Assembly: GCF_030538285.1 (NCBI RefSeq)
Contig: NZ_JAUNUG010000009.1
Location: forward strand, 1 to 64,000
Direction: 5' to 3'
From: Corynebacterium sp.
GTDB lineage: Bacteria; Actinomycetota; Actinomycetes; Mycobacteriales; Mycobacteriaceae
Length of the DNA: 64,000 bases
Part shown: positions 3,360-59,348 of the stretch, one piece after another
How the letters are laid out: each line of letters opens with the position of its first letter
Numbering within the stretch: the stretch's first letter is position 1
The notes under the pieces: model-generated
Told to the model about the DNA's origin: nothing
The model's input: only the letters and a program-made list of their open reading frames with translations
Database searches by the model: none
Program-made: the position numbers and the translations under genes

Positions 3360-4834
3360 AACTGCTGGATTATGTCCCGCTCATCATGCTGCTGACCTCG
3401 TTGGTAGCGGCCTTGCTCATCTTCCCCCTCCCGGAAGGCGCGCGGCGGGTACGGTCGACGATTAACCTGGCGGCGGCCGTCGCCAAGCTGGGGTTGGTGT
3501 TCCTGCTCTTCCCCGTAGTGCTGGATGAGGGCCTGCGCCCCGAGTTCGCCGTCCCCTTCCTCCCGGGCATTGACCTGGTGCTGCGGGTGGATGAGTTCTC
3601 GCTGTTCTTCGCCACGCTCTCGGCGGTGCTGTGGCTGCTCACCACCATCTACGCCATCGGCTACCTGGGTCAGGGCCAGCACCGCTCGCGATTCTTCGGC
3701 TTCTTCAGCCTGTGCGTCACGGCGACGGTGGGCATCTCGTTTTCCGGCAACCTCATCACTTTCCTCGTCTTCTACGAGATGCTCACGTTGGTGACGTATC
3801 CGCTGGTGGCGCACTGGGGGACGGCGGCGTCGATAAGCGCGGCGCGCCTGTACCTTCGCTACACCCTCAGCGGTGGGTTAGCGCTGCTCATGGGTGTCGT
3901 CTGGCTGACCAGTTACGCCGGACCGGTCGATTTCGCCCCCGGTGGTGCGGTGGGTGTCGCGGAGCTTGTTGACGCCCAGCCCCTCGCCGCCACCCTCATC
4001 TTCGCCCTGCTCATCGGTGGTCTGGGCGTGAAGGCGGCCCTGTTTCCCCTGCACGGCTGGCTGCCCACCGCGATGGTCGCCCCCGCCCCGGTCTCCGCTC
4101 TGCTGCACGCGGTGGCGGTGGTCAAGGCGGGTGTGTTCGGCATCGTGCGCGTCATCGATGACGTCTACGGCGTCAACGTGGCCGCCGATCTCGGCGTGCT
4201 CGATCCGCTGCTCGCCGTCGCGGTGGTGACCATCCTCTACGGCTCCTACCAGGCGCTACGTCAGAGCGATCTCAAGGCGCGGCTGGCGTATTCGACGGTC
4301 TCGCAGGTCTCCTACGTCACGCTCGGCATCGCGCTCGTGTCTGTGGCGGGTGCGACGGGCGGGGTGGTGCATCTGGTGCACCAGGGTGTCATGAAGATCA
4401 CCCTGTTTTTCTGTGCCGGGTTGTTCGCGGAGGAGGCGGGCGCGAAGAAGATCCCGGAGTTGGACGGCCTGGGCAGACGCATGCCGGGCACCTCCGTGGC
4501 GTTCACGGTCGGCGCTTTCGGAATGATCGGTCTGCCACCGACAGCCGGGTTCATCTCTAAGTGGCAGCTGGGACTCGGCGCGCTGGATTCCGCGCACCCG
4601 TGGGTGATCGCCGTGCTGCTGGCCTCCTCGGTGCTCAACGCCATGTACTTCCTGCCGATCGTCTACCGCCTGTGGTTCCGCGCAGCCCCGGGTGAGCGGC
4701 TGCGCGAGCCGCTGCCCCTGCTGGTTCCCGCCTTATCGACGACCGCCCTGGTCCTTATTTTCGGCACCTTCGCGTCCGCGCCGTTCATGCCGCTGGACAT
4801 CGCCGGACAAGTCGCCGAGGGGGTGTTCCGATGA
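3353..4834 (+). CDS. Mrp/Mnh antiporter-like subunit D, second copy
   Basis: A 493-residue polytopic NuoL/M-type protein. The TM5 glutamate is present at about residue 142 (VFYEMLTLVTYP), the TM7 lysine in GLGVKAALFPLHGWLP, the next lysine in AVVKAGVFG, and a later lysine in FISKWQLG. All known proton-path residues are therefore intact. The ATG at 3353 follows GGAGG at 3338-3342 and is favoured over an upstream in-frame ATG at 3320 inside the previous gene. Two copies of the dispersed 10-mer occur inside it, at 3828 and 4732; one forces the rare codon ATA and the other TTA. Confidence 0.88.
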   Translation: MVELLDYVPLIMLLTSLVAALLIFPLPEGARRVRSTINLAAAVAKLGLVFLLFPVVLDEGLRPEFAVPFLPGIDLVLRVDEFSLFFATLSAVLWLLTTIYAIGYLGQGQHRSRFFGFFSLCVTATVGISFSGNLITFLVFYEMLTLVTYPLVAHWGTAASISAARLYLRYTLSGGLALLMGVVWLTSYAGPVDFAPGGAVGVAELVDAQPLAATLIFALLIGGLGVKAALFPLHGWLPTAMVAPAPVSALLHAVAVVKAGVFGIVRVIDDVYGVNVAADLGVLDPLLAVAVVTILYGSYQALRQSDLKARLAYSTVSQVSYVTLGIALVSVAGATGGVVHLVHQGVMKITLFFCAGLFAEEAGAKKIPELDGLGRRMPGTSVAFTVGAFGMIGLPPTAGFISKWQLGLGALDSAHPWVIAVLLASSVLNAMYFLPIVYRLWFRAAPGERLREPLPLLVPALSTTALVLIFGTFASAPFMPLDIAGQVAEGVFR

Positions 4835-6327
4835 CCTTTGATATTCCCTGGCTGCTCTTCGGCTCCACCTTCCGACTCGATGACATCTCAGCCCCGCTCG
4901 TGGCAGTGGCGACCGTGCTCTACGCCGTGGCGCTCATCGCCTCCCGCGACCGCATGCTGCGAGTATTCCTGCTGGTCAGCTACCTGGGCAACATCGGCGT
5001 CTACCTCGCCGCCGACATCATCAGCTTCTACCTGGCGTTTGCGGTGATGAGTTTCGCGGCGGTCGGCCTGGTCATCCACACGCGCACAAAAGCCGCGCAC
5101 CGGGCCACCGGCGTCTACCTGGTGATGACGGTCTTAAGCGAAACCGCCCTGCTCGCCGGTCTCTGGTTGACCGGTGCCGCCGGAGGGATGCTTATCGACG
5201 CCGCCCCCACAGCCATCGCCTCCTCCGAGCATCGCGAGCTCATCGTCGCGCTGCTCATCGTCGGTTTCGGCGTGAAGGCAGGCCTGGTGCCGCTGCATGT
5301 GTGGTTGCCACTGGCGCACCCGGCCGCACCCCCGGCGGCCAGCGCGGTGCTCTCTGGAGTGATGGTCAAGGCCGGCGTCCTCGGCTGGTTACTCTTCCTC
5401 CCCGCGGGCGTGGATGTGTTCGCCTGGGTCTTGCTCATCCTCAGCCTCCTCGGGGCTTTCGGGGCCCCGCTGATCGGCGTGCTGCAGAGCGACCCGAAGG
5501 TGATCCTGGCGTACTCGACCATCTCCCAGCTGGGTTTCCTCGGTGCGGTCATCGCCGCCGGGATGCTCCTGCCGGGGGCGTCAGTGACCGCTGCGGTGGT
5601 GGTCTACGCCGTGCACCACGGCCTGGCCAAGGGGGCACTCTTCCTCGGGGTCCCGGTATGGCAGGCCGCGGCGCCGGGCGTGCGCCGCTGGATCGCCGTG
5701 GCCGGACTCGGCTGGGCGGGCCTGGCACTCGTCGGCCTGCCTTTCACCTCCGGGGCGCTGGCCAAGTACGAGGCGAAATCATCCGTCGAGGAGCACTGGG
5801 TGTATCTGCTGCTGCCGCTGGTGGCCACCGGATCGACGCTGCTGCTCGTGCGTTTCGCGTGGGCGCTGCGGCGGATGGAGATCAAGCCGCGCAAGGTCGA
5901 TGAGGAGCTGCTTGGCTGGCTCACCCTCTGCGTTCTCGGGCTCGCGCTGCCGCTCGTCTACACGCACCCCACCCCTGAGCCAGGCACCCTGTGGGACATG
6001 CTGTGGCCGCTGCTGCTGGCTATACCGCTCGGCTGGTGGCTGTGGCACCGCGCGCCCGCCGAAACGCCCGTCCCGGCGGGGGACCTCGTCGTCGTGGGTG
6101 AACACGCCCTGGCCGCCACCCGCATCACCGGCGGGGCCGGGCTGGAGCGGGTACATGGGGTGACGCGCGGCGTCGCAAAGCATTGGGCTCGGGCCTTTTC
6201 CAGTGCCGGTGAACTCACCGAACGCAGTGTGGAGGGTATCGAATCCCGCGTGCGCGTATGGACCCTTTCAGGCGTGGTCACCCTGGTTTTGTTGGGCACC
6301 CTGTTGGCCTTGGGGTGGTGGATATGA
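4831..6327 (+). CDS. Mrp/Mnh antiporter-like subunit D, third copy, lacking the TM5 glutamate
   Basis: A 498-residue membrane protein of the same NuoL/M/N family. The lysines of the central helices are present (GFGVKAGLVPLHVWLP and VMVKAGVLG). The position that holds the conserved TM5 glutamate is alanine at about residue 71 (FYLAFAVMSFAAV, where relatives have FWELMS). The N-terminus is about 60-70 residues shorter than the other two copies up to this point. A soluble segment near residues 410-475 precedes a last membrane helix. It overlaps both neighbours by ATGA. Its role may be structural or a modified proton path. Confidence 0.82.
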   Translation: MTFDIPWLLFGSTFRLDDISAPLVAVATVLYAVALIASRDRMLRVFLLVSYLGNIGVYLAADIISFYLAFAVMSFAAVGLVIHTRTKAAHRATGVYLVMTVLSETALLAGLWLTGAAGGMLIDAAPTAIASSEHRELIVALLIVGFGVKAGLVPLHVWLPLAHPAAPPAASAVLSGVMVKAGVLGWLLFLPAGVDVFAWVLLILSLLGAFGAPLIGVLQSDPKVILAYSTISQLGFLGAVIAAGMLLPGASVTAAVVVYAVHHGLAKGALFLGVPVWQAAAPGVRRWIAVAGLGWAGLALVGLPFTSGALAKYEAKSSVEEHWVYLLLPLVATGSTLLLVRFAWALRRMEIKPRKVDEELLGWLTLCVLGLALPLVYTHPTPEPGTLWDMLWPLLLAIPLGWWLWHRAPAETPVPAGDLVVVGEHALAATRITGGAGLERVHGVTRGVAKHWARAFSSAGELTERSVEGIESRVRVWTLSGVVTLVLLGTLLALGWWI

Positions 6328-6806
6328 TCCGGCTCCTTTTCTTCGCCGGCGTGTGGCTGCTGCTTGCCGGGTGGAACGCCGACTACCTGGCGTATGGCGT
6401 GGTTAGCGTGGTGGCAGCCACGGCGCTGAGTCACGTGCTGGTTCCGCGCTCGAATCTACGGCTGCACCCGGTGGGCACCGCTCGGCTGGTGGCGTGGTTC
6501 CTGCAGCAGACCGGCATCGGTGGAGTGGACGTGGCGCGCCGGGCTATCGCGGCGAGACCGGACATCGCCCCGGAAGTAGTCGAGACGCAGGTCTGGCTGC
6601 CGGCAGGGCCCGCCCGGCAGAGCGCGATGCTGTTGATGAACCTGATGCCCGGATCCATGGTGCAGCGCGAAACAGGCGCCGACCGCGTGGAACTGCACAC
6701 CCTCAGCCCCACCCTGGAGCCCGCCCGGCAGTTCGATGAGCTGCAGCGGCGCGTGGCAGCGGCGTTCAGTCTGCCCGACCAGGCAACAGGCGATGCGGAG
6801 CGCTGA
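6324..6806 (+). CDS. mnhE: Mrp/Mnh antiporter subunit E
   Basis: A 160-residue protein with two N-terminal hydrophobic segments followed by a cytoplasmic domain. LMNLMPGSMVQ matches the MnhE signature (xNxxTPGTxx), and the C-terminal part (VELHTLSP) fits the family. It is the last gene of the operon, overlapping the previous stop by ATGA. Its last 41 bases overlap the 3' end of the convergent pseudouridine synthase gene, and no hairpin terminator was seen. Having subunit E last differs from the common ABCDEFG order. Confidence 0.85.
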   Translation: MIRLLFFAGVWLLLAGWNADYLAYGVVSVVAATALSHVLVPRSNLRLHPVGTARLVAWFLQQTGIGGVDVARRAIAARPDIAPEVVETQVWLPAGPARQSAMLLMNLMPGSMVQRETGADRVELHTLSPTLEPARQFDELQRRVAAAFSLPDQATGDAER

Positions 6807-8950: not shown

Positions 8951-8956
8951 TTTCCG

Positions 8957-8994
8957 CTTATCGACGTCCCGCGTCCCCCTCGGGGGCCGCGGGA
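8957..8994 (+). terminator. Terminator of the stress gene, preceded by the dispersed 10-mer
   Basis: The stem TCCCGCG (8967-8973) pairs with CGCGGGA (8988-8994) around an inner CCCCC/GGGGG stem, followed by TGTTGTTGTTTAT. The dispersed motif CTTATCGACG occupies 8957-8966, directly before the hairpin and outside any gene. Confidence 0.75.
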
Positions 8995-9417: not shown

Positions 9418-9434
9418 CCTCCCAAGCTCTAAGA

Positions 9435-12433: not shown

Positions 12434-13002
12434 AGCCCGAGGTTGGCGATGACCTCCTTGGCCACCAACTCGGCCTTGAGGGACTGCTCCTGGTTGCTGA
12501 ACACCACCACAGCGCGGTTGTCCTTCTGCACCGCGTAGAGCGAGCCCTCCCAGTCCGGGACCATGCCGCCGCCGGCGCGCCCGCCGGACCAGCCCTCAGG
12601 TTCCTCGGCGGGTTCAGTGACGTCGATGGGTGCTGCCCAGTCCACGACCTGGATCGCGGCATCCGTATCCGGCATGTCCCGCACGATGACGCTCAGGTGC
12701 GGTCCTTCCGGGTAGGACCAGTACACGCAGGCCGGCGTGTCGAATCGCTTATCGACACCCACCCCCAGCGTCCGCTGCCCGTTCGTGTCGGATACCCACT
12801 GGGTATCCAGGTAGGGGCACTCCTCGAAGGACTCCCGTCCTGCGGGGATCTCCGGCAGCGCGTCGTGCGGCAGGCCGGAGTCAGCGGCTGGGGGTGCCTC
12901 CTCGGTGGTGGTGTGGACGGGGGCGTCGATAAGCTCCTCCTCGGCGGCACATCCGACCAGGGCGGCACTGAGGGCGAGCACGGGAAGTAGGCTGACACGC
13001 AT
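12430..13002 (-). CDS. DUF2020 lipoprotein
   Basis: A 190-residue predicted lipoprotein. The signal peptide ends with the lipobox ALVGCA (cysteine near residue 18), followed by a Thr/Glu/Pro-rich linker and a compact domain from about residue 55 that matches the corynebacterial DUF2020 family (ECPYLDTQWV near its start). It should sit on the outer face of the membrane. The start ATG 13002 shares CATG with the divergent sensor kinase, and TAGGCT lies seven bases upstream of the ATG, implying a leaderless mRNA. Function is unknown. Confidence 0.8.
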   Translation of the reverse strand: MRVSLLPVLALSAALVGCAAEEELIDAPVHTTTEEAPPAADSGLPHDALPEIPAGRESFEECPYLDTQWVSDTNGQRTLGVGVDKRFDTPACVYWSYPEGPHLSVIVRDMPDTDAAIQVVDWAAPIDVTEPAEEPEGWSGGRAGGGMVPDWEGSLYAVQKDNRAVVVFSNQEQSLKAELVAKEVIANLGL

Positions 13003-16096: not shown

Positions 16097-17593
16097 GTGA
16101 ATGCCCAGTACGTGAGCGCCGCTGATCTGGTGGGCTGCCGCTACCGGCAGGTCCAGCGGTTCCGCCACCCGGAAGTGCCGCGCACCCGCGCGGCCCACAT
16201 GCGACTGGAGCGTATCGACGCCGCCCGCAACGCCGTCCACGCTTTCCTTCCGCAGCGCCCGGCGCGTGGCGATCGCCAACGCTTCCTGCGCCTCGATATC
16301 CCGCCCGTCCCCCACGAGGAAGACCCCTTCCACGCGGAGATGGCCACGCTGGAGGCCCTGGCGGCGGAGGCCACGCTGATTACTGGTGCGGTGTTCACTG
16401 GCGATGGGTGGCGCGTTGAGGTGGATATCCTGGTGCGCCGCGCAGACGGCAGCTACCTGCCGGTGATTATCTCCAACCACCGGGTAGCACGGGCCGATGA
16501 GCGCGCGAGCACTCCCGTCCTCGCCACCTCGCGCCTGGGCTTGGGGCAGCCGGTCAATGGGGCGTTTCGCTTGCGCCACCACGTCGCCGACGGTTACCGG
16601 CTGGCCCTTGCGGCCCGTGCCCTGGCGGATATCGGGGTGGATTCCGGGCTCGGTGCGGCGATCGGGCAGGACCGCAGCCGCGCGTTTCTGGCGCCGACGG
16701 CACCGCTGCAGCCAGCTGTGCAGGCCGCCCTCGACGCGGAGCTGCCGGATGCCCCGCGCCGGGTGAAGGAGTGTGCGTCGTGTCGCTTCTGGCCCTTGTG
16801 CGAGCAGGAGCTGCGCGCGGTGGATGACATTTCCCTCTACCTGCCCGGTGATCGGGCGCGGAAATGGCGGGAGGAGGGTATCACGACGGTGTCCGCGCTT
16901 ATCGACGCCGACCTCGGCGACCCCTCCCGCCTCGCCCGCGCCTGGCGTCAAGGGGTGGTCCTGCTGAAGAAGGTCGACGAGGTCAGCGCGCCCCGCGCGG
17001 ATGTGGAGATAGACGTGGACATGGAGGCCTACCTCGATCAGGGCGCCTACCTGTGGGGTGCCTTCGACGGGGAGAACTACCACGGCTTCGCCACGTGGGA
17101 ACCTCTCGGCGGGGAGGGGGAGGCTGAGAATTTCGCCCGTTTCTGGTCCTGGCTCATGGACCGGCGGGCCCAGGCCCAGACCGAGGGGAAGAGCTTTGCC
17201 GCCTACTGCTGGTCCAACCATGGGGAAAACCACTGGCTGACCATGAGTGCCCGCCGCTTCGCCGGGCGTCAGGGCGTGCCCACGGAGGCTGAGGTGAAGG
17301 CCTTCATTTCCTCACCCGAGTGGGTGGACGTGTTCCGTCTGGTGCGTGCACAGCTGGTGGGGCCCGGTGGTCTGGGACTCAAGGTGGTGGCCCCGCAGGC
17401 CGGTTACACCTGGGACGACGGGGATTTCGACGGCGAGGAATCCGTCAACGCGCGCCGTGTCTCCCGTGGCACCGACGCCGCTGCCATGCAGGCCCGCCAT
17501 CAACTTCTGCAGTACAACGAGGATGATTGCCGGGCCACCGCCGCGGTGCGGGAGTGGCTGCGGGCGGGTGCGCCGGGCGTCGAGAAGCTCTAG
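16097..17593 (+). CDS. TM0106-family RecB-like putative nuclease
   Basis: A 498-residue protein with an N-terminal RecB-like nuclease region, then the cysteine cluster CASCRFWPLCEQEL near residues 225-240 (as in AddB/Cas4-like iron-sulfur nucleases). A C-terminal RNase H-like exonuclease domain has acidic residues (VDMEAYLDQGAYLWG; QYNEDDCRATAAV). The GTG at 16097 follows TATGCT (16082-16087) by nine bases, suggesting a near-leaderless mRNA. It shares the CTAG stop palindrome with the next, convergent gene. A DNA repair role is likely but unproven for this family. Confidence 0.78.
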   Translation: MNAQYVSAADLVGCRYRQVQRFRHPEVPRTRAAHMRLERIDAARNAVHAFLPQRPARGDRQRFLRLDIPPVPHEEDPFHAEMATLEALAAEATLITGAVFTGDGWRVEVDILVRRADGSYLPVIISNHRVARADERASTPVLATSRLGLGQPVNGAFRLRHHVADGYRLALAARALADIGVDSGLGAAIGQDRSRAFLAPTAPLQPAVQAALDAELPDAPRRVKECASCRFWPLCEQELRAVDDISLYLPGDRARKWREEGITTVSALIDADLGDPSRLARAWRQGVVLLKKVDEVSAPRADVEIDVDMEAYLDQGAYLWGAFDGENYHGFATWEPLGGEGEAENFARFWSWLMDRRAQAQTEGKSFAAYCWSNHGENHWLTMSARRFAGRQGVPTEAEVKAFISSPEWVDVFRLVRAQLVGPGGLGLKVVAPQAGYTWDDGDFDGEESVNARRVSRGTDAAAMQARHQLLQYNEDDCRATAAVREWLRAGAPGVEKL

Positions 17594-19131
17594 AGCACCC
17601 GGATGGACAACACCATGCCCTGGGCGTGGTGCCCGGCGATGGTGCAGCGGCCGTCGAGGTCAGCGGTGATGACACCGAGGTCCATCTCGACCTCCTCGCC
17701 AGGGACGAGGCGACCGGAAGTGACACCGGAGTCGAGGCGGAGATCGTGGGCGAGCTCGGGGTCGTCGTTACGCAGGCGCAGGAGCACCCGATGCCCGGAC
17801 GGGACGTCGATGACGTCTGGCTCGAAGCGGTAGCCGACGGCGCGCACCTCGACCTGCGTGACCTGCTCCGCCCCGGTGCCCACAACTGTGGTGGAAGGGC
17901 TGGCCAGCCCGCCGAAAGCGCCGAGCAGTAGAGCGAGGACTGCGACCCCGGCCGTGACCTGATTCCAGGCCGGGCGCGGCTCGCTGGGGCGTGGGGGAGC
18001 TTCCGCCTGCTTTCGGATCACCGCGATCTGGGCGCGCGAGGCCCGGCGCATCAGCGGCAAGAAGGCGGCGAGTGCGCCTAGGCACAGGACGGATGCCGCG
18101 ACCTTGAGCCAGGAGTTGTCGGCCGCCAGCCACACTGCCAGACCGCCGTTGACCAGGGTGACCCGGAACAATCCGGCCCGCTCCATCTCCCGGGCGCCGG
18201 CCCGCACCGCGCCGGGCCCACCCCGCATGGCGGCAGGCAACTGGTGGCTCATCACGCCCAGGAGTAGCTGGGCGGCGAACCCGACCAGCAGCGGCAGGAC
18301 AGGACGGTGCCCGAAGCCGAGGGCGACGAGGGAGCCGATGAGCCACAACACGGCGGCCAGCACCGACACGGAGGCAAAGCCGATGCGGTCGCGGGGATCG
18401 CGCAGCACTTCAGCGACCTGCCGTAGCCAGCCCACCAGGCCCAGGAGCCAGCCGGCGGCGTAGAGGAAGAGGGGGGCGTCGATAAGCGGGACCGCGATGG
18501 CACCCACCGCGCCCAGCGTGAGGGCAACGAGCATCGGGGTGAAAGGCGCGGTGCCCTGCACGCGCCATATGGCTGGGAAAAGGATGCTTAACGACGCCGC
18601 CGCCGCGATACCGACGAAACCGAGGAAAGTCGCCGCCAGGTGCGCGGCCAGCAGCTCCTCTGAGGTGTCGTCGGCAAGCAGAGCGCCGAGGAACCCGCCT
18701 ATCGGGAAGAAAAGCGCGGATATGACGTATCCGGCCACCAGCGGGCGGTGGCGGTGGCGACCTGCGCGCCACCATGCCCGCCCCAGGGCGAGCGCGTGCC
18801 ACAGCAGGGCGAGCGCCAGCACCGCGACACCGGCGTGCGTGAGCGGGAGCAGGTCCGTGAGCTGCCCGGCGACGGTGAGCACCACGCCGAGGTTGAACAC
18901 CGCGAGCCTGGCTACCAGTGGCCGCCAGGCGGTGTCCTGCCCGAGAAAGCGGCCGGTGAGGGTCTGGGACCACAAAACGATCGAGTTGCCCACGACACCG
19001 AGCGTGAACAGGTGGATGAGCACCCAGCGGTAGCCGGGGATGAAGGTGTGGGTGAGCCCGGCGAGAAGGAACAGGAGCATCCACACCGTTACCGGCCGGC
19101 TGGCGATGCGATGCCAGGGGAGCGAAGCCAT
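17590..19131 (-). CDS. Membrane protein with C-terminal cupredoxin domain
   Basis: A 513-residue protein. Residues 1-390 form about ten to twelve membrane helices, similar to the N-terminal membrane domain of actinobacterial multicopper-oxidase-like proteins. After another hydrophobic helix (about 400-420) comes one cupredoxin domain with a type-1 copper site: His in LAHDLRL and Cys/His/Met in CTIAGHHAQGM. Relatives often continue into further copper domains; here the protein ends just after the first. Possible roles are copper handling or electron transfer. It may be cotranscribed with the MFS gene upstream. Confidence 0.7.
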   Translation of the reverse strand: MASLPWHRIASRPVTVWMLLFLLAGLTHTFIPGYRWVLIHLFTLGVVGNSIVLWSQTLTGRFLGQDTAWRPLVARLAVFNLGVVLTVAGQLTDLLPLTHAGVAVLALALLWHALALGRAWWRAGRHRHRPLVAGYVISALFFPIGGFLGALLADDTSEELLAAHLAATFLGFVGIAAAASLSILFPAIWRVQGTAPFTPMLVALTLGAVGAIAVPLIDAPLFLYAAGWLLGLVGWLRQVAEVLRDPRDRIGFASVSVLAAVLWLIGSLVALGFGHRPVLPLLVGFAAQLLLGVMSHQLPAAMRGGPGAVRAGAREMERAGLFRVTLVNGGLAVWLAADNSWLKVAASVLCLGALAAFLPLMRRASRAQIAVIRKQAEAPPRPSEPRPAWNQVTAGVAVLALLLGAFGGLASPSTTVVGTGAEQVTQVEVRAVGYRFEPDVIDVPSGHRVLLRLRNDDPELAHDLRLDSGVTSGRLVPGEEVEMDLGVITADLDGRCTIAGHHAQGMVLSIRVL

Positions 19132-21356: not shown

Positions 21357-21373
21357 CGTCGAAAAGCAGGAAG

Positions 21374-41380: not shown

Positions 41381-42316
41381 ATGGCCAAGCGACCGTTCAC
41401 CAAGCGCGCGAGTTTCTATGTGCCGCGTGGGTTGACCGAGGTGCCCGACCACCCGGTCGAGGCCACGGAGCGCCCGTACAACGGGTTCATCATCCCGCTG
41501 GCGAAGTCGCTGATGAAGGCGCAGGGCATCCGCCTGACGGTGTTCGGCGCGGAGAATATCCCCTTGGAGGGTCCGGCGTTGCTGGCGGTCAATCACACCG
41601 GCTACTACGACTTCATCTTCGGCGGCATTCCTGCGCACTTGCGCGGGCGTCGGCTGGTGCGGTTCATGTCGAAGAAAGAGATTTTCGACGCCCCCGTCGC
41701 CGGTCCCCTCATGCGCGCCATGAATCACCTGCCGGTGGATCGTTCCGCCGGTGCCTCTTCGCTTATCGACGCCGTCGAGCGCCTCCGCGCAGGCCAGCTC
41801 GTCGGCATCTTCCCGGAGGCCACGATTTCCCGTTCCTTCGAGCTCAAGGAGTTCAAGAACGGTGCGGCGCGTATCGCCGCGGAGGCGGACGCTCCGCTCA
41901 TCCCCATGGTGATCTGGGGTTCCCAGCGCATCTGGACCAAGGGGCATCCCAAGCGTCTCGGCCGCACGAAGACCCCGGTGTTCATTCGTGTCGGCGAGCC
42001 GGTGGATCCTTCCGGTGATCCCGATGCGGCGATCGCGCGCCTCAAGGACGCCATGCAGGTGCTGCTCGACCGCGTGCAGGACGACTACGCCCGGGCCTAC
42101 GGCCCGTTCCCAGCTGGTGAGTTCTGGATCCCCGCTGAGGATGGTGGTTCCGCGCCCACGCTTATCGACGCCGACCGCATCGACTCCGAAGCCAAAGCCG
42201 CGAAGATCGCTAAGGCGGAAAAGAAAGCTGCCGCCAGGTTGGACCAGCGCGCCGATGCGAAGCTCGGCAATGCACGATCCTTCATTGACAAGGTGAAGGA
42301 AAAACTCAGGAGATAA
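41381..42316 (+). CDS. Lysophospholipid acyltransferase (PlsC family)
   Basis: A 311-residue protein with the acyltransferase motifs LLAVNHTGYYDF (HxxxxD) and VGIFPEATIS. It joins an acyl chain to a lysophospholipid or related acceptor at the membrane face. A C-terminal extension from about residue 240 is rich in Lys, Ala and Asp. GGGGAG lies before ATG 41381. Part of a serS-acyltransferase-HAD-glpK run with small gaps; a glycerolipid link with glpK is plausible. It has two dispersed 10-mers (41762, 42161). Confidence 0.87.
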   Translation: MAKRPFTKRASFYVPRGLTEVPDHPVEATERPYNGFIIPLAKSLMKAQGIRLTVFGAENIPLEGPALLAVNHTGYYDFIFGGIPAHLRGRRLVRFMSKKEIFDAPVAGPLMRAMNHLPVDRSAGASSLIDAVERLRAGQLVGIFPEATISRSFELKEFKNGAARIAAEADAPLIPMVIWGSQRIWTKGHPKRLGRTKTPVFIRVGEPVDPSGDPDAAIARLKDAMQVLLDRVQDDYARAYGPFPAGEFWIPAEDGGSAPTLIDADRIDSEAKAAKIAKAEKKAAARLDQRADAKLGNARSFIDKVKEKLRR

Positions 42317-43165: not shown

Positions 43166-44674
43166 ATGACGGCTTCGCATCCGAAACAATATGTCGCGGC
43201 GATTGATCAGGGCACCACGTCCACCCGTTGCGTCATCATCGACGAGTCTGGCCAGGTCGTTTCCTCCGGCCAGTATGAGCACCGGCAGATCATGCCGCGT
43301 CAGGGCTGGGTTGAGCACGATGCTCTGGAGATCTGGGCGAATACCCGCCGGGCTGTGTCCAGCGCGATGGTGGACATTGACGTGTCCCCGGACCGCATCG
43401 CCGCCCTCGGTGTCACCAATCAGCGGGAGACCGCCGTGGTGTGGGAGGCCGCGACGGGTAAGCCGATTCATAATGCCATCGTGTGGCAGGACACTCGCAC
43501 CGCTGGCATCGCCGGGGAGGATCCGCGTCGTTGGCTTGATCGCACTGGTTTGCTGGCGAACTCTTATCCGGCGGGTCCGAAGATCGCCTGGATCCTCGAC
43601 AATGTCGATGGTGCCCGGGAGCGCGCGGAGGCCGGGGAGCTGTTGGCCGGCACTATCGATACGTGGCTGTTGTGGAACCTCACCGGCGGCGCCCGGGGTG
43701 ACGATGGCCGACCCGCAGTCCACGCCACTGACGTCACCAACGCCTCCCGTACCCTGCTCATGGATCTGCGCACCTGCCAGTGGGATGAGGAACTCTGCGC
43801 CGAGATCGGGGTGCCGCTGCAGGTGCTGCCGGAGATTCGCCCGTCGCTAAGCCAGTTCGGTGCGGTCCGTCGCCGCGGCACCCTCGCCGGGGTACCCATC
43901 ACCGGTGTCCTCGGCGACCAGCAGTCGGCCATGTTCGGCCAGGGGTGCTTTGAAGTCGGCGATGCCAAAAACACCTACGGCACTGGCTTGTTCCTGCTGC
44001 TCAACACTGGTGAGAAGCCGCAGTTCTCTGACCATGGTCTCCTGTCGACCGTTCTCTATCAGCAGGAAGGCGAATCCCCGGTGTATGCCCTGGAGGGTTC
44101 GGTGGCGGTCGGTGGTTCGCTGGTGCAGTGGCTGCGGGACCAGCTGGGGATCATCCGCTCCGCCGAGGAAGTGGAGCGGATCGCCGCCGACGACAACGGA
44201 GGGGTGTTCATCGTCCCGGCGTTCTCGGGGTTGTTCGCCCCGCGGTGGCGTCCGGATGCGCGCGGTGTCATCGTCGGTCTCACCCGCTTCGCCGACCGCA
44301 CCCATATCGCCCGCGCCGCCCTGGAAGCCACCGCGCTGCAGAGCCGTGAGGTCGTCGAGGCGATGGTCGCCGATTCCGGCATCGAGCTGAACAGCCTGCG
44401 GGTGGATGGCGGCATGACCGCGAACGATACCCTCATGCAGCTACAGGCTGACATCCTCGGCGCCGAGGTTGTGCGCCCCAGCAACATTGAGACCACCGCA
44501 CTCGGGGCGGCTTTCGCCGCGGGCATCGGCGCCGGGTACTGGTCCGGCTTGAAGGAGGTCCGCTCCCTACAGACCCCCGATCAGGCATGGGAGCCGCAAT
44601 GGTCGGCGCAGCGCCGGGACGAGTTGGTCGGGGAGTGGAATCGGGCGGTGGAAAGGTCACTGGACTGGGATTAG
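43166..44674 (+). CDS. glpK: Glycerol kinase
   Basis: A 502-residue FGGY kinase that phosphorylates glycerol to glycerol-3-phosphate. Typical stretches: [14 protein letters not shown] at the start, [34 protein letters not shown], and [15 protein letters not shown] near the end. TAGGAT (43154-43159), within the end of the HAD gene, is six bases before ATG 43166, giving a separate leaderless transcript. Its TAG stop overlaps the TAA of the opposing HNH gene (TTAG). No glycerol facilitator is adjacent. Confidence 0.95.
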
Positions 44675-46218: not shown

Positions 46219-48183
46219 TTAGCTCAGTTTGACGTCGACGTTGCCGTCGGCGGGATTGAAGGTGATGTAGCCACCCTCGAAGTCGACGCGGATGAGGTCG
46301 CCCTCGTTGTACTGCTCGTTGAGCGGCATGCCGAGCGGGCCCAAGTCGAAGCCCTGCGCGGCCCACAGGTCGCCGATCACACCCCAGAGAGCGCGGGCCT
46401 CGGGGGCGTCCTGTTCGTCGATGATGATGCCGTTATCAAACAGGGCGTAGGTGGTGCCGGTGGTATTGATGCCGCCGCGCGGATCGCCGAGAACCGCACC
46501 ATAATTGCCGCCCACGCGGTCCACGGCCTGGGTGATCTTCGGGTCGCTGGCGAGGGTCGAGACGACGTCAAGAACGGGCTTGAGGTCCTCGAGTTTGACG
46601 TTGTCCAGGATCTGGACATCGCCAACCTGCTGGGTACCGCCCGGGAGAGATCCGTTAGAAGCCAGGAAGGCCACGGCCAGGCCAGCGAGGGTGCCGGCGA
46701 TGGTGAGCAGGGCGGTAGTGTCGCCACCCGCGGCACTGCTCAGCGTGTTCACGGCCGGGTTGGACGGTGCCGGCTCGCGGTTGACCGGCGGATTCGGACG
46801 CGGCTGCGTGGTGGTCGGCGGGGTGGTCTGGGTGGTTGTCGGGGAGGTCGTCGGGGTGTTGTCCGTCAGTCCTCCGGAACGCATCTGCTCGGCCTTCTTT
46901 GCGGCGATGCTGCGGATGGTGCCCATCTGCGCGTAGCCGTACTGGCCGGGGCAGGCGTTGACGTGGGCATCGCGGTGCGCGAAGACGTTCGACAAGGTCA
47001 TGGGGACGCCGCCGGTGTGCCTGGAGCCGGGGAAGCTCAGCGGGGTGTAGGAGGCGGAGCCCTGCGGATTGAAGCCTGCGAGAGCGGCCTTCCAGCCGAT
47101 CATCTCACCAACGGACTGGATCATCGCCGGGGTGGTGGGGACAACATCGTAGTTGCCCATCATGGAGATGCCGAAGGTGCCATGGTTGAAACCGCCGACA
47201 TGTGCGCCCTGGACGTTCTTGTCCAGCCCGCCAGCGCGGCCTTCGTAGATGGTGCCGAACTTATCGACGACCGCGTTGTACCCGATGTCACACCAGCCCA
47301 GACTGTTGGCGTGGTAGTTGTACATTCCGCGCATGATGCTGGCGGACTGGGCCCGGGTGTAGTTATTGGAGCCGGCGGTGTGGTGCACCGCGGCGGCCTG
47401 CAGCTTGGGGTCGACGGTGACGCGGCAGCGGTTGCCGGACGGCGCGCCCCAGCCGGCGCGGGAAACCACCTTGGGCATGCCGCGGGTGATGGAGTCGGTG
47501 GCCAGTGCGATGCCACCCTCGGCGGCGTTGCCGTCGATGAAGACCACATCGAGGTCCTCGGGTGCGGCGACGTCGGCGACGGGCTGGATGTCGCCGTAGT
47601 TGGTCGGCAGCGGGGCGAGGCCGGCGGAGACCGGGACCTCGACAGCCGGAACATCAACAGCCGCCTCCTCGGCGATGTTGATGTCCACCTCCGGCTCCTC
47701 CGGGGCGCCCAGGATGTCGACGCCGGTGATGGAGACCTGGACCTTGTTGGTGGGCTCGACGTAGAGGAGCTCGGTGCCGTTCTCGCCGTTGGGGCCGAGC
47801 TGGCCGATGGCCTCGGCGTCCCACCACGGGCCCCAGGAGCCGTCGGGCATTTCGGCGCGGACGAAGGCGGCGAGGTCGCGGTGATCGGTCCAGGTCAGGG
47901 CGAACATGGTGAACTGCTCGTCGCGGGTGAACTCCTTGACCGTGCGCGGGCCGGGGATGCCGGACTGGGCGGCGATGGCGGCGTCGTCGATAAGCACGTT
48001 GTCGCCGGAGGCGAAGGAATCGGTGGCCTGGAAGACCTCGACGGGGCCGGTGCCGGCGTCCTGGGTCTGGAGGATCTGGTTTCCGCCGAATGCGGCGGAG
48101 ACGATGAGGGCAAGGGACAGGACTACGGCCAACGTCGGGTTGACGCTGGTCTGCCCTGTGGCGATACGGCGTCGCTGCTGCAC
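46219..48183 (-). CDS. Exported PGRP/amidase_2 domain protein with LGFP repeat
   Basis: A 654-residue exported protein. A hydrophobic helix near residues 18-38 anchors it or serves as signal. Around residues 215-390 lies a peptidoglycan-recognition/N-acetylmuramoyl-L-alanine amidase domain (RAGWGAPSGNRC, AAVHHTAGSNNYTR, IYEGRAGGLDKN). A Thr/Pro-rich linker follows, then an LGFP-like wall-binding repeat at the end. GTG 48183 has GGGAG 11 bases upstream; ATG 48276 is less likely. Mycobacteria also have a PGRP gene beside glf. It may trim peptidoglycan or attach to arabinogalactan. Confidence 0.82.
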   Translation of the reverse strand: MQQRRRIATGQTSVNPTLAVVLSLALIVSAAFGGNQILQTQDAGTGPVEVFQATDSFASGDNVLIDDAAIAAQSGIPGPRTVKEFTRDEQFTMFALTWTDHRDLAAFVRAEMPDGSWGPWWDAEAIGQLGPNGENGTELLYVEPTNKVQVSITGVDILGAPEEPEVDINIAEEAAVDVPAVEVPVSAGLAPLPTNYGDIQPVADVAAPEDLDVVFIDGNAAEGGIALATDSITRGMPKVVSRAGWGAPSGNRCRVTVDPKLQAAAVHHTAGSNNYTRAQSASIMRGMYNYHANSLGWCDIGYNAVVDKFGTIYEGRAGGLDKNVQGAHVGGFNHGTFGISMMGNYDVVPTTPAMIQSVGEMIGWKAALAGFNPQGSASYTPLSFPGSRHTGGVPMTLSNVFAHRDAHVNACPGQYGYAQMGTIRSIAAKKAEQMRSGGLTDNTPTTSPTTTQTTPPTTTQPRPNPPVNREPAPSNPAVNTLSSAAGGDTTALLTIAGTLAGLAVAFLASNGSLPGGTQQVGDVQILDNVKLEDLKPVLDVVSTLASDPKITQAVDRVGGNYGAVLGDPRGGINTTGTTYALFDNGIIIDEQDAPEARALWGVIGDLWAAQGFDLGPLGMPLNEQYNEGDLIRVDFEGGYITFNPADGNVDVKLS

Positions 48184-48299: not shown

Positions 48300-49568
<1,269 letters not shown>

Positions 49569-49593
49569 TTGTGCGGCGGGGCCCCGCGGGAGT

Positions 49594-49613
49594 AAAGTTA
49601 ACTCTAGGTTAAC
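49594..49613 (+). promoter_or_regulatory. Operator-like box upstream of the first ArsC-like gene
   Basis: AAAGTTAACTCTAGGTTAAC contains two GTTAAC palindromes 11 bases apart, 49 bases before the start. An 18/20 match occurs at 50330 and a weaker one at 50428, both before the second paralog. Confidence 0.55.
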
Positions 49614-50276: not shown

Positions 50277-50289
50277 AAAGATGCTTTTC

Positions 50290-50314
50290 GACGCCCCCTC
50301 GTGGGGCGTTTTTC
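50290..50314 (+). terminator. Rho-independent terminator
   Basis: ACGCCCC (50291-50297) and GGGGCGT (50303-50309), then TTTTT. It separates the two ArsC-like genes into independent transcripts. Confidence 0.9.
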
Positions 50315-50329
50315 CATTGTTCCCGGCTT

Positions 50330-50349
50330 AAAGTTAACTCTGGGTAAAC
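50330..50349 (+). promoter_or_regulatory. Operator-like box, distal copy before the second paralog
   Basis: AAAGTTAACTCTGGGTAAAC matches the box at 49594 in 18 of 20 positions. It lies 118 bases upstream of ATG 50468. Confidence 0.55.
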
Positions 50350-54478: not shown

Positions 54479-54981
54479 GCAACCGCGAAGTTGAACTGTT
54501 GATCAAGGTCCAGGACGCGCTCGTCGATAAGCAGGGGGTGATCCCTGCAGCCACGACGTTGTCGCACTTCGGTGAGCACGCCCTCGGCTGGTTCGCGCTG
54601 TCTGGCGCGGGCGCGGCCCTCGATGCCCGCCGCCGCCGTCAGTGGCTGGCGCTGGGTGCCTCGGCGTTCACTGCCCACGCCGCCTCCGTGGTGATCAAAC
54701 GCATCGTGCGCCGCACCCGCCCGCACGACCCGCGGATCAAGGTGGGGGTGGGCACGCCCTCGCGGTTGTCCTTCCCCTCCTCCCACGCGACTTCCACCAC
54801 CGCCGCGCTGGTCAGCCTGTCCGACCTCACGGGGTCGAAGGCGCCGCTGCTCGGTGTTCCCGTGATGATGATCTCGCGTATGGTTCTGGGGGTGCATTAC
54901 CCGACCGACACCCTGGCCGGCGCCGTCCTGGGAGCCACCACGGCCAAGGTCATCACCGCAATCGAGAGGAAGAGCGCGTGA
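54475..54981 (+). CDS. PAP2-family phosphatase (decaprenylphosphoryl-phosphoribose type)
   Basis: A 168-residue membrane phosphatase with the PAP2 motifs KRIVRRTRP, FPSSHATST and SRMVLGVHYPTD. In mycobacteria the gene in this slot (Rv3807c) is thought to remove the 5-phosphate from decaprenyl-phosphoryl-phosphoribose made by UbiA, on the way to the arabinose donor. Coupled by overlap to glfT2 (ATGA) and ubiA (GTGA). Confidence 0.87.
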   Translation: MSNREVELLIKVQDALVDKQGVIPAATTLSHFGEHALGWFALSGAGAALDARRRRQWLALGASAFTAHAASVVIKRIVRRTRPHDPRIKVGVGTPSRLSFPSSHATSTTAALVSLSDLTGSKAPLLGVPVMMISRMVLGVHYPTDTLAGAVLGATTAKVITAIERKSA

Positions 54982-55973
54982 GCGAGTCACACCCGGTCGA
55001 GGAGAAGACCGGCATCTTCTACCCGGAGCCGCACACCGAGGGGATCGACAACACCCGCAAACGGCGCCCCCCGAAGAACCTCCCGGACGCCATGATCAAG
55101 GCGCTGCGGCCGAAGCAGTGGGTGAAAAACGTCCTCGTGGTCGCGGCCCCTGCGGCCGCCGGCGCTGAGGCGCTCACCGATGGTCGCACGCTTCTCGACG
55201 TCCTCCTCGCCTTCATCGTCTTCTGCCTCGCTGCCTCGTCGATCTATCTGGTCAACGATGCCCGCGACGTCGAGGCCGATCAGCAGCACCCCACCAAGCG
55301 TTTCCGCCCCATCGCCTCCGGCATGCTGCCGGTGGGTCTGGCCTACGCCATGGCCGTCATCCTCATCATCGCGGCGGTCGGCCTGTCCTTCCTGGCCTCC
55401 TCCGGGTGGGGGCTGGCCGCGGTGGTGGCGGTCTACATCGCCCTGCAGCTGGGCTACTGCTTCGGCTGGAAGCACCTGCCGGTGATCGATATCGCGCTGG
55501 TCTCCTCCGGTTTCATGCTCCGCGCCATGGCCGGTGGTGTGGCCGCGGGGATTGAGCTGTCCCAGTGGTTCCTCCTGGTCGCCGCGTTCGGTTCGCTGTT
55601 CATGGCCTCCGGTAAGCGCTACGCAGAGCTGCAGCTGGCGGAGCGGACCGGTAAGAAGATCCGCCGCTCCCTGCAGGGATACACTGCCACTTACCTGCGT
55701 TTCGTGTGGACCTTGGCCGCCACGGCCGTGGTCATGAGCTACGCGCTGTGGGGTTTCCAGCTCTCCAACTCCGTCGAGGGGATGGCCGGTGTCTGGTACC
55801 AGGTCTCTATGGTGCCGTTCACCATCGCGATCCTGCGCTATGCGGCCGACGTCGACCGTGGTGCCGGTGGGGCGCCCGATGAGATGGCCCTGACGGACCG
55901 TGTCCTGCAGGCGCTGGCACTGCTGTGGATCCTGTGCATCGTCATGGCGGTGTACCTGGTGCCGATGCTCTAG
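54978..55973 (+). CDS. ubiA: Decaprenyl-phosphate phosphoribosyltransferase
   Basis: A 331-residue UbiA-superfamily prenyl-phosphate transferase with about nine membrane helices. It joins 5-phosphoribosyl-diphosphate to decaprenyl phosphate, the first committed step to the arabinose donor. The two Asp-rich motifs are visible: YLVNDARDVEADQQHP and the second near DIALVSSGFMLRAMAG. GTG 54978 (GTGA overlap) is the start, with GAGAGGAAG upstream. The cytosolic N-terminus has about 40 polar residues. Confidence 0.93.
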   Translation: MSESHPVEEKTGIFYPEPHTEGIDNTRKRRPPKNLPDAMIKALRPKQWVKNVLVVAAPAAAGAEALTDGRTLLDVLLAFIVFCLAASSIYLVNDARDVEADQQHPTKRFRPIASGMLPVGLAYAMAVILIIAAVGLSFLASSGWGLAAVVAVYIALQLGYCFGWKHLPVIDIALVSSGFMLRAMAGGVAAGIELSQWFLLVAAFGSLFMASGKRYAELQLAERTGKKIRRSLQGYTATYLRFVWTLAATAVVMSYALWGFQLSNSVEGMAGVWYQVSMVPFTIAILRYAADVDRGAGGAPDEMALTDRVLQALALLWILCIVMAVYLVPML

Positions 55974-56006: not shown

Positions 56007-57911
56007 ATGACCACGGCTGCCGGAATGCGCTCGCGGGCCTCGCTGACCTTGTGGTCCGGGGCCGGCGCGGCCCTGGTGCTGGCGATTCTGGCATTCATCG
56101 GGGGGTGGCGTCGGCGCTGGATGAGCGATGACGGGCTCATCGTTTTGCGCACCGTCCGCAACCTGCTGGCCGGCAACGGCCCCGTGTTCAACGCGGGGGA
56201 GCGGGTGGAGGCCAACACCTCCACCCTGTGGCAGTACCTCATTTACCTGGCGGCGCTGGTCACCGATGCCCGCCTGGAGGTCATCGCCACTTGGTTGGCG
56301 CTGGCCTTCACCACCGCCGCCCTCGGTGTCGCCGCGTGGGGCACCGCCCGGCTCCACCGTCGACGCGCCAGCCTGATCCTCATCCCGGCCGGCGGGCTCG
56401 TCTACCTGGCGCTGCCGCCGGCGCGGGATTTCGCCACCTCCGGCCTGGAGTGGGGTTTGAGTCTGCTCTGGATCGCGGGGCTGTGGTGGCTTCTGGCCAC
56501 CTGGTCGCACCCGCCCACCGGGGGACGGCATGCGAGCGCTCCCCGCGACCACATCACCTATGCCCTGGCCTTCTGGACAGGTATCTCCTGGCTCGTCCGC
56601 CCCGAGTTGGCGCTCTACGGCGGTTTGGCGGGCCTGCTGCTGCTTGTCGCGGCGACGTCCTGGAAGCAACGCGCCCTCATCCTGGCGGTGGCGCTGCCGG
56701 TTCCGGCCGCCTACCAGATCTTCCGCATGGGCTATTACGGTCTGCTCACCCCGCACACGGCGGTGGCCAAGTCGGCCGGCGACGCAGAGTGGGCCTCCGG
56801 GTGGGACTACGTCCTCGACCTCACCGAGCCCTACGTCCTGTGGGTGGCGCTGGCACTGCTGCTCGCCCTGGGGGCGGTGACGTTGTGGCGCTTATCGACG
56901 TCACGCACGCCCCTCAACCTGCGTTCCCCCGTCACGGTGACCGCCCTGGTTCTGGTGGCTGGCACCCTCCACCTGCTGTATGTCCTGCGCGTCGGCGGTG
57001 ACTTCATGCACGGCCGCATGCTGCTGCTGCCCCTGTTCGCCCTGCTGCTGCCGGTGATGGTGGTGCCGTTGACGGATCTTCGCTCCACCTCGCTGCGCTA
57101 CGACGGCCTGGCAGCCCTGGGGCTGGCGTCGCTGTGCTGGTGGTCGGTTACCACCACCATCAATGGCCACCCCATTGACTGGGAGACGGACTACGAGGAA
57201 CTCGGCATTGTCGATGAGCGGGACTTCTGGACGTACGCCACCTTCCGCGAGAAGAATGATCCGCCGATGTTCGCCACGGACTTCCTCACGGCCAAGGCCA
57301 TGAATGACTACCCGGAGACCGCGCAGCGGGCCGTCGCGGAAGACGTGGGCCTGATGACGATGTTCGGCCTCAACGAAGAAGAATTCTCCTGGACCACCGG
57401 CCCCCGTATCCCGCGCGAGTACGAGGGAGGCGATCCCACCGGGCTGGTAGGCCACCCGCCGACCCTTTTCCACATCAACTTGGGTATGACGAGCATGAAC
57501 GCGCCGTTGGAAATGCGCGTGCTGGACACGGTGGGGTTGGCCACCCCCCTGGCTGCCCGCCAGCCGCGTGACCCGGACGCCCGGGTCGGGCACGACAAGT
57601 GGCTGCCTTTTTCCTGGCAGGCCGCCGACACCTCCATGCCCCTGGACTATCTGCCGCCCTGGTACGACCAGGAGGAGACGACGAGGGTGCGGGAGTCATT
57701 GCAGACCCCGGCGATCGCCGAGCTCATGGCCTCCTACCGGGAACCGATGAGCCCGAAGCGTTTCCTGAAGAACATCCGCTTCGCGCTCACCGACGGGCGC
57801 ACCCTGGAGCTCAGCCTCGACCCGGATGAGGTCATCGAGGAATATGGCCCCGTTACCCCCGGAATAAGGTTGGCGTGGCCAAACAATATTTCGCCCGAGA
57901 ACCCCAGGTAG
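56007..57911 (+). CDS. aftB: Terminal beta-1,2-arabinofuranosyltransferase AftB
   Basis: A 634-residue GT-C enzyme that caps arabinan chains with terminal beta-arabinose before mycolate loading. About ten membrane helices (residues 15-380) contain the acidic motif MSDDGLIVLRTVRNL in the first external loop. The C-terminal third is an extracytoplasmic domain. TAACAT (55993-55998) lies eight bases before ATG 56007. A dispersed 10-mer at 56891 forces the rare TTA leucine codon. A hairpin follows the stop. Confidence 0.92.
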   Translation: MTTAAGMRSRASLTLWSGAGAALVLAILAFIGGWRRRWMSDDGLIVLRTVRNLLAGNGPVFNAGERVEANTSTLWQYLIYLAALVTDARLEVIATWLALAFTTAALGVAAWGTARLHRRRASLILIPAGGLVYLALPPARDFATSGLEWGLSLLWIAGLWWLLATWSHPPTGGRHASAPRDHITYALAFWTGISWLVRPELALYGGLAGLLLLVAATSWKQRALILAVALPVPAAYQIFRMGYYGLLTPHTAVAKSAGDAEWASGWDYVLDLTEPYVLWVALALLLALGAVTLWRLSTSRTPLNLRSPVTVTALVLVAGTLHLLYVLRVGGDFMHGRMLLLPLFALLLPVMVVPLTDLRSTSLRYDGLAALGLASLCWWSVTTTINGHPIDWETDYEELGIVDERDFWTYATFREKNDPPMFATDFLTAKAMNDYPETAQRAVAEDVGLMTMFGLNEEEFSWTTGPRIPREYEGGDPTGLVGHPPTLFHINLGMTSMNAPLEMRVLDTVGLATPLAARQPRDPDARVGHDKWLPFSWQAADTSMPLDYLPPWYDQEETTRVRESLQTPAIAELMASYREPMSPKRFLKNIRFALTDGRTLELSLDPDEVIEEYGPVTPGIRLAWPNNISPENPR

Positions 57912-57932
57912 ACCCCACAATTGTCACAGCTA

Positions 57933-57961: not shown

Positions 57962-58063
57962 TTTTGCTCTAGAGTGTCACGCAGTAGGGACTCGGATGTG
58001 CGTAACGGATGCGCAGGTGCGGTCGATAGTCCCAAAGTAGATACGCCAAAGCCGAGGAGAACA

Positions 58064-59080: not shown

Positions 59081-59094
59081 CAGGCTGCGGCGAA

Positions 59095-59120
59095 ACCCCG
59101 GAAGGAACTCCTTCCGGGGT
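59095..59120 (+). terminator. Rho-independent terminator after cmt2
   Basis: ACCCCGGAAGGA and its complement CCTTCCGGGGT with TTTTT: a strong hairpin 14 bases after the stop. Confidence 0.93.
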
Positions 59121-59348
59121 TTTTCGTGTTCGGCACGGCGTGGCCTACGCTAAAGTCTCAAGTTCAACTTAAACTTAAGCAAGCCATACGGCGACTATAA
59201 CTTCAACAACCTTTCACTGGCGTGTGACGTCGGGAACGGGTGGGCGTCGATAAGCGCACCCCGGGGGAGGGGAACCCCCGGGAACCACCCGTACCTTCAC
59301 GCACCCCGGAAGTACTAGACAACCGCGACCCCCACAAGGATCCACACC
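59121..59348 (+). promoter_or_regulatory. cop1 leader region: promoter, motif copy and hairpin
   Basis: TATAAC (59196-59201) is the best -10 box, behind an AT-rich CTTAAG-type repeat at 59160-59180. The leader would be about 145 bases. It holds the dispersed motif GCGTCGATAAG (59244-59254) and then a CCCGGGGG/CCCCCGGG hairpin (59260-59282) without a T-run. Confidence 0.5.

Follow-up and report, generated by a model that had tools for sequence, protein, structure and literature searches.

The 64,000-nucleotide stretch of Corynebacterium sp. DNA studied here (positions 1 to 64,000 of contig NZ_JAUNUG010000009.1, assembly GCF_030538285.1; hereafter the window) is scattered with copies of a 10-mer, CTTATCGACG, which is the optimal form of a larger, polar DNA element found across much of the genus. 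In our view, it probably serves as the uptake sequence by which a natural-transformation system favours DNA of its own kind. Its excess, strand balance, permissive positions within genes, synonymous conservation and dialects with a shared inner core make up a footprint whose traits can be read, by analogy, as the hallmarks of DNA uptake sequences (DUSs) with dialects; from this footprint we infer a receptor, biased uptake and a resulting drive. We also lean, by a little, towards the fuller proposal that Corynebacterium has an uptake-sequence system with dialects that arose independently, as the third of its kind and the first in Actinomycetota; a 42-bp polar tag with a C-over-G threading flank would be read at the Tad/Flp pilus, and the spellings would split the genus into DNA-exchange groups. 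The mycolate outer layer makes Corynebacterium two-membraned, like both proteobacterial families with uptake sequences. These families, the Neisseriaceae and Pasteurellaceae, are the only two in which such systems are known, according to PMC12616744.

From a 10-mer to a larger core

The first-pass annotation of the window had counted 21 exact copies of CTTATCGACG, with well under one expected. Both figures hold: the 21 copies lie at the same places (12 on the + strand and 9 on the - strand), and 0.27 are expected from an order-3 Markov model. With up to one mismatch, 44 matches are found in the window, compared to a mean of 2.41 and a maximum of 6 in 100 shuffles. A genome-wide count had been proposed as a check. 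The whole genome (2.95 Mb in 94 contigs, completeness 96%, contamination estimate 6.7%) holds 436 + 427 = 863 copies and 1 + 1 of the reversed word, which shows that the excess extends beyond the window.

In 18 of the 21 window copies the 10-mer is preceded by G, resulting in a fuller core, YGCTTATCGACG. Substitution counts in a 375-kb sample show that place 4 of the 10-mer tolerates any base (CTTCTCGACG, 54 copies vs 4.4 expected) and that place 2 accepts G (18 vs 1.5), with most other single-base changes at single-digit counts. The corresponding gapped form, GCTTNNCGACG, occurs 35 times in the window (2 of the reversed form) and 1,964 times in the genome (64 reversed), or roughly once every 1.5 kb; none of 242 Corynebacterium genomes has more. 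The spacing between the two halves was examined in a 415-kb sample, where the full GCTT half is strongly enriched at a gap of 2 only (290 vs 7 reversed); 4–10 copies occur at gaps of 0, 1, 3, 4 and 6, and 20 vs 8 reversed at a gap of 5. The TT half alone is in about 10-fold excess over its reversed form at gap 2 and in 1.3- to 3-fold excess at other gaps.

Intergenic copies, being free of codons, show the full preference of the element. Among 71 of these from the genome itself and its relative G009, the base before the core is a pyrimidine (Y; G in 1/71), the central A is present in 53/71 and the central T in 64/71. This gives a core of 11–12 bp, YGCTT-AT-CGACG, gapped 4+2+5 and non-palindromic, of which the middle two bases are relaxed inside genes. 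The 10-mer is thus the optimum of a larger polar element, and the variation at its centre is imposed by the genes that carry it. As is typical for DUSs, the words are dispersed, non-palindromic, 9–12 nt long and present in hundreds to thousands of copies. The first-pass annotation had recognized a dispersed DNA signal correctly but took too small a unit for it, as the core is longer, its centre is relaxed, it is followed by a 30-bp flank and it is spelled in genus-wide dialects.

An artefact of codon-pair usage or base composition was considered, as one in-gene frame dominates (58 of 101 copies encode LID) and the TT half alone exceeds its reversed form at other gaps too. It is almost certainly not the explanation: the sharpest form of the motif is found in intergenic copies, reversed words occur at chance level, permuted words lack the flank, and the full GCTT half is strongly enriched at a single spacing. 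We rejected it on the basis of the intergenic copies, the permuted words and the other spacings.

A one-sided, C-rich flank

Downstream of the core, C exceeds G from place 12 to about place 42 after the core start, with a skew of 0.20–0.47 in the 6-base bins of places 13–42 that drops to about 0 beyond places 45–60. This flank is present in three genomes with the GCTTNNCGACG spelling (C form) and in four pooled genomes with a second spelling, GCTTNNCGATG (T form); no comparable skew was seen upstream of the core in these genomes. From about place 19 onwards, its AT content is close to background. The flank accompanies intergenic, sense and antisense copies (68, 350 and 168), and permuted control words show no skew. 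Over places 12–41, the skew tracks the quality of the core, from 0.446 for the best core, GCTTATCGACG (301 sites), through 0.289 for other GCTTNNCGACG copies (383 sites) and 0.085 for TTNNCGACG without GC (258 sites), to 0.024 for TCGACG alone (1,392 sites). A one-sided flank that scales with the core means that the whole element is about 42 bp long and polar, consisting of the core and about 30 bp of same-strand C-over-G flank.

This architecture bears on highly iterated palindrome 1 (HIP1), a cyanobacterial word to which the 10-mer had been likened. In a HIP1-like reading, the motif would be linked to a DNA methyltransferase and mismatch repair. Both words are very abundant, dispersed and in massive in-gene excess within one lineage, going by what is generally held of HIP1. 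HIP1 is, however, a palindrome, and the analogy fits poorly because the Corynebacterium motif is not; it is polar, gapped 4+2+5 and flanked on one side. We regard a HIP1-like function as very unlikely.

Placement in genes and along the chromosome

In the 375-kb sample, the 101 in-gene copies of the 10-mer are distributed over sense frames (58, 2 and 6) and antisense frames (0, 10 and 25). Because both reading frame and strand vary among the copies, the 10-mer is not a protein motif, and the first-pass annotation was right to say so; most copies lie in two permissive frames, the dominant sense frame and the last antisense one. Intergenic GCTTNNCGACG copies do not exceed chance level (34 vs 33.8 and 40 vs 54.0 expected). 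For the plain 10-mer, a smaller sample gave 22 vs 14.7 expected in the genome itself and 15 vs 15.9 in G009. Gene calling agrees that two window copies, at 8957 and 59245, lie outside genes. The strands are balanced as well, with 92,130 vs 92,211 copies over 173 C-form genomes. Twenty evenly spaced 20-kb stretches of the closed G009 chromosome (origin set at base 1 and terminus near the middle, following the sign change of the GC skew) hold 108 leading- and 107 lagging-strand copies. The motif is not a gene-control or polarity site.

No density gradient from origin to terminus is visible across these G009 stretches, two copy-poor ones aside. The other 18 stretches hold 6–20 copies each (mean 11.9), and the two poor ones hold 1 and 0. 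The copy-free stretch (L009) is rich in transposase-like genes, and the one-copy stretch (L008) contains two transposase-like genes together with MerR/mercuric-reductase-like genes, functions in both cases being read from the sequence without a family search. Copies are spaced almost at random, with no more than a slight tendency to evenness (coefficient of variation, CV, of 0.79–0.90 in five samples). A polar chromosome-organizing site, another suggestion of the first-pass annotation, is contradicted by the lack of both polarity and gradient in G009. A fixed origin-to-terminus orientation, as for FtsK-orienting polar sequences (KOPS), was rejected on the same strand counts; an apparent + strand majority near the start of several closed genomes was not upheld by their DNA.

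Conservation between orthologues

Motif copies are conserved between the orthologues of related species beyond synonymous expectation, here taken from frame-matched permuted words. A first pair, G009 and G059, shares 104 orthologues with a third-position identity of 0.577, in which 24 of 55 aligned copies are retained in full, compared to 5.1 expected. In a second pair, the T-form genomes G209 and G004 (48 orthologues, third-position identity 0.550), 13 of 19 copies are retained in full, compared to 1.8 expected. A comparison of synonymous sites within the motif had been suggested earlier, and it bears out the excess: third-position identity is 0.729 vs 0.585 in the control for the first pair and 0.795 vs 0.539 for the second. 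In the second pair, mean identity over the nine core places is 0.871 vs 0.776.

Copies kept in place between species would also suit the binding site of a nucleoid or chromosome-organizing protein. The slightly even spacing points in the same direction, albeit weakly, as 4.8% of random placements are at least as even as the copies of G009 (CV 0.90). We nevertheless find this function improbable. The motif has neither a visible gradient nor polarity, and it is hard to see why such a site should be re-spelled across whole clades or be followed, on one side, by 30 bp of skewed base composition.

Distribution and dialects

Within an order-wide sample of 249 genomes, the motif is confined to Corynebacterium: none of the 246 genomes from outside the genus has more than 11 copies of GCTTATCGACG. 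Word counts (motif vs reversed control) likewise show no motif in Rhodococcus oryzae (159 vs 197), Nocardia cyriacigeorgica (88 vs 374), Tsukamurella (147 vs 148) and Gordonia asplenii (221 vs 292). Conservation across Corynebacterium, another proposed check, proved extensive. The C form, defined as GCTTNNCGACG at at least 3 times its reversed control, is found in 173 of 242 genomes, with a median of 1,076 copies (range 115–1,964). The T form numbers 490–1,337 copies of GCTTNNCGATG in 14 genomes and 159–223 in 4 more. G024 is the only T-form genome that also passes the C threshold, and the other C-form genomes have at most 165 copies of the T form. Examples already among the 242 are C. urinipleomorphum Marseille-P2799T (1,152 vs 69) and Corynebacterium sp. 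MSK041 (1,010 vs 56), both with the motif, and C. variabile NBRC 15286 (86 vs 81) and a C. urealyticum bin (56 vs 55), where there is none.

Further spellings exist. Six genomes (G056, G070, G071, G168, G169 and G237) form a central sub-dialect, with 1,444–1,901 copies of GCTTNNCGACG but 2–5 of CTTATCGACG, and G054, counted as C form, has an additional ATTNNCGACG flavour. Neither main form is found in 52 of the 242 genomes, six of which were sampled at 100 kb each. Among these, G012 has a form of its own, TT-NN-TGACG-YCGCG (TGACGYCGCG, 66 vs 0 reversed; L228-L232), which lacks the C-rich flank and may be a further dialect or a second system. G128 holds TGCCGATGCC (12 vs 0.25). No clear form of their own was seen in the samples of G008, G043, G121 and G132, although G043 still holds 5 copies of GCTTNNCGATG vs 0 reversed. 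The inner core TT-N2-YGAYG is common to the C form, the T form and the forms of G054 and G012, and is shared in part only by G128.

The dialects follow phylogeny, as DUS dialects with a shared core do. On a tree of the Tad ATPase TadA from 50 genomes (a gene tree rather than a species tree; G172 was excluded, as only TadA was obtained from its stretch), dialect labels change 7 times, compared to 25.7 times when shuffled. For this purpose G032 (weak T) was labelled T, G054 was labelled C, and G012 and G128 were labelled 'none'; the latter two have their own forms and are thus not losses. A single group of 15 genomes with full support, 13 of them T and 2 labelled none, contains the T form; the central sub-dialect makes up one clade, and the C form surrounds both. 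A deep group of seven with an apparently fused TadB-TadC is without the motif.

The main rival to an uptake sequence is a Chi-like signal. Here, the core would be read single-stranded by a recombination helicase-nuclease (of the AdnAB, RecBCD or AddAB type), the C-rich side would provide context, and the element would mark the cell's own DNA. Chi and KOPS sites are, as generally described, polar and species-specific words. The motif is likewise a polar element with 3′ context, enriched, spelled by lineage and absent from one stretch of mobile DNA, and Chi in Escherichia coli is held to be affected by its 3′ context. In contrast to Chi and KOPS, the motif shows no strand bias along the replichores of G009, where the leading-strand bias that we understand most known Chi sites to have is lacking. 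An 11-bp core with a 30-bp flank also far exceeds the 5–8 nt usually given for Chi, and the absence of the motif from some species would ill suit a basic repair function. Taken together, we judge a Chi-like role unlikely.

Competence machinery and the search for a reader

An uptake sequence implies a machinery to take up DNA. ComEC (68/68 genomes), the Tad ATPase (68/68) and DprA (56/56) were found in every genome searched, with or without the motif. A second search for the Tad ATPase placed 31 of 34 genomes above the cut-off; the three below it (G168, G169 and G203) are assemblies of 370–480 contigs. A comEA-like gene adjoins comEC in 6 of 7 genomes, the exception being G054, where gene calling went astray. 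In six genomes, the Tad locus runs from tadA through tadB and tadC to a small Flp-like pilin and minor pilin-like genes, except that tadB-tadC is one fused gene in G121 and the locus is incompletely called in G054. TadA and ComEC were identified by Pfam, and the other Tad genes were named by resemblance.

Across the genus, the length of the ComEC open frame varies between about 440 and 880 amino acids, and long frames occur mostly in motif-less genomes. A link between ComEC length and motif absence was dropped, since two genomes with the motif, G107 (T form) and G153 (C form), have long frames as well. The DprA match of G029, which is without either form (G029:C1:1842183-1842692), has an E-value of 1.9e-16, compared to 1e-56 or better in the other 55 genomes.

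The Tad minor pilins were considered as candidate readers and 51 loci were gathered. Because the T spelling and the central sub-dialect are each limited to a clade of their own, pilin residues could not be matched to spelling. The TadA tree requires 3 changes, all inside a single clade, for the T spelling and 1 change for the NN spelling, and an analysis of coevolution would need more independent events than these.

Comparison with known systems

The closest parallel is the DUS of Neisseriaceae, read by the minor pilin ComP, with clade-wide dialects and a small shared core (Frye 2013, PMC3630211). Both elements have a 10–12 bp non-palindromic core in around a thousand or more copies, permissive in-gene positions and dialects around a small common core. 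The Corynebacterium element differs in its unrelated sequence, 30-bp C-over-G flank, weak pairing at terminators, actinobacterial host and candidate carrier, the Tad/Flp pilus. Pasteurellaceae have uptake signal sequences (USSs), for which ComN/PpdA is the proposed reader; PMC12616744 describes a core with a discontinuous, one-sided downstream flank reaching to about 32 nt. The one-sided arrangement is shared, whereas the composition differs: USS flanks are rich in AT, and in the Corynebacterium flank C replaces G, with AT close to background from about place 19 on. Within the same phylum, transformation of Micrococcus luteus depends on the Flp pilus, that is, on a Tad pilus as proposed here (PMC4322843). 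As a difference, that paper makes no use of the term 'uptake sequence' (0 occurrences).

In open-licence PubMed Central, none of the titles and abstract starts among the matches listed describes this motif, or any uptake sequence, for Corynebacterium; the listed matches containing one of the words look unrelated or primer-like. Spaced motifs derived from clustered regularly interspaced short palindromic repeats (CRISPR) have been named for the genus (PMC5217627).

A possible mechanism, and what weighs against it

If the element is an uptake sequence, a DNA receptor on the cell surface, located most probably at the Tad/Flp pilus or next to it, would bind the core and draw DNA in, with the flank aiding the start of bending, melting or threading. 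ComEA and ComEC would then import one strand, which DprA and RecA would recombine. Fragments with a better copy would enter and recombine more often, and this biased uptake would spread and maintain the motif (molecular drive). A change in the receptor would, in turn, re-spell the motif across a clade.

Several observations weigh against this reading. The same PubMed Central search yielded, among the matches listed, no description of a naturally competent Corynebacterium. The Tad minor pilins of the 51 loci did not reveal a reader protein. ComEC, the Tad ATPase and DprA also occur in genomes without either main form; there is thus no correlation, and machinery presence was dropped as a predictor of the motif. 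The ComEC match of G229, a genome rich in the motif, is divided between two open frames. Between G009 and G059, identity averaged across the nine core places hardly exceeds the control (0.784 vs 0.770), as those copies that were not retained sit where the sequence has diverged. The minor frames, with few copies each, are not uniformly conserved (in G009, 0/2 for sense frame 1 and 1/7 for antisense frame 1). Pairing at terminators is weak, unlike the habit of Neisseria and Haemophilus: over 89 C-form genomes, inverted pairs number 318 vs 297.1 expected in one arrangement and 454 vs 297.1, or 1.5-fold, in the other. For this count, 32 of 121 genomes were excluded as not C-form (including G028 and G158, with 1 pair each) and genome sizes were rounded. 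Single terminator-like hairpins formed by two copies do occur, at L064 15616-15647 and in G038. Finally, other functions of dispersed motifs could leave a similar footprint. The DUS analogy of the first-pass annotation fits most of the tested traits and has two weak points, the limited terminator pairing and the presence of the machinery in motif-less species.

As a separate observation, inverted motif pairs are frequent in G168 (27 and 26 vs 7.4 expected each), unlike in most relatives.

Copies within the window

Table 1. Copies of the motif in the 64-kb window, with core spelling, strand and context.
Feature	Positions	Strand	Remarks
Core variant GCTTGCCGACG	424..434	-	intergenic (called genes)
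Core variant GCTTGGCGACG	3478..3488	-	inside gene 3353-4834
Best core GCTTATCGACG	3828..3838	-	contains 10-mer 3828-3837
10-mer CTTATCGACG	4732..4741	+	C, not G, before it
Best core GCTTATCGACG	5190..5200	+	
Core variant GCTTTGCGACG	6171..6181	-	
Best core	8956..8966	+	intergenic, directly after gene 8054-8950; C-rich flank enters C5/G5 hairpin
Best core GCTTATCGACG	12924..12934	-	
Best core GCTTATCGACG	16897..16907	+	
Core variant GCTTCTCGACG	17578..17588	-	
Best core GCTTATCGACG	18477..18487	-	
Core variant GCTTAACGACG	18586..18596	+	
Core variant GCTTGCCGACG	18669..18679	-	
Core variant GCTTGCCGACG	20851..20861	+	
Core variant GCTTTTCGACG	21357..21367	-	intergenic
Best core GCTTATCGACG	23870..23880	+	
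Best core GCTTATCGACG	25132..25142	-	
Core variant GCTTTACGACG	26281..26291	+	
Core variant GCTTTTCGACG	27276..27286	-	
Core variant GCTTGGCGACG	27715..27725	-	
10-mer CTTATCGACG	29406..29415	+	A, not G, before it
Best core GCTTATCGACG	29569..29579	+	
Core variant GCTTTTCGACG	30476..30486	+	inverted pair with copy at 30509
Best core GCTTATCGACG	30509..30519	-	
Core variant GCTTCCCGACG	33942..33952	+	intergenic
Core variant GCTTCTCGACG	39400..39410	-	
Best core GCTTATCGACG	40191..40201	-	
Best core GCTTATCGACG	41761..41771	+	
Best core GCTTATCGACG	42160..42170	+	
Core variant GCTTAGCGACG	43842..43852	-	
10-mer CTTATCGACG	47260..47269	+	A, not G, before it
Best core GCTTATCGACG	47985..47995	-	
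Best core GCTTATCGACG	49004..49014	+	
Core variant GCTTTTCGACG	50283..50293	+	after gene 49662-50276; C-rich flank is one arm of a terminator-like hairpin, then T5
Best core GCTTATCGACG	54522..54532	-	
Core variant GCTTCTCGACG	55190..55200	+	
Best core GCTTATCGACG	56890..56900	+	
Best core GCTTATCGACG	59245..59255	-	intergenic

Besides these copies, the window contains a 12-mer, TAAAGTTAACTC, twice (49593-49604 and 50329-50340), each time shortly upstream of a + strand open reading frame start (49662 and 50354); the pair is perhaps a shared regulator site. Among the other genomes, G132 carries 36 copies of a repeat (AAATACCTCCGCGTGCGCGGAGAATTG...) with a 61–62 bp period at L059 20-2157, resembling a CRISPR array. 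G121 and G107 have small clusters of the DnaA-box-like TTRTCCACA (L057 18400-18680; L054 979-1033 and 12654-12672; L073 3817-3875 and 11497-11555).

Implications

If confirmed, an uptake sequence in Corynebacterium would be a third origin of such sequences, in a distant phylum and a widespread genus, and many corynebacteria would be naturally competent now or have been so until lately. The C-over-G flank would offer a new physical clue to how the tagged end of a DNA molecule enters the cell. The dialects would predict which species can exchange DNA, and comparing the spellings would make the question of the receptor approachable.

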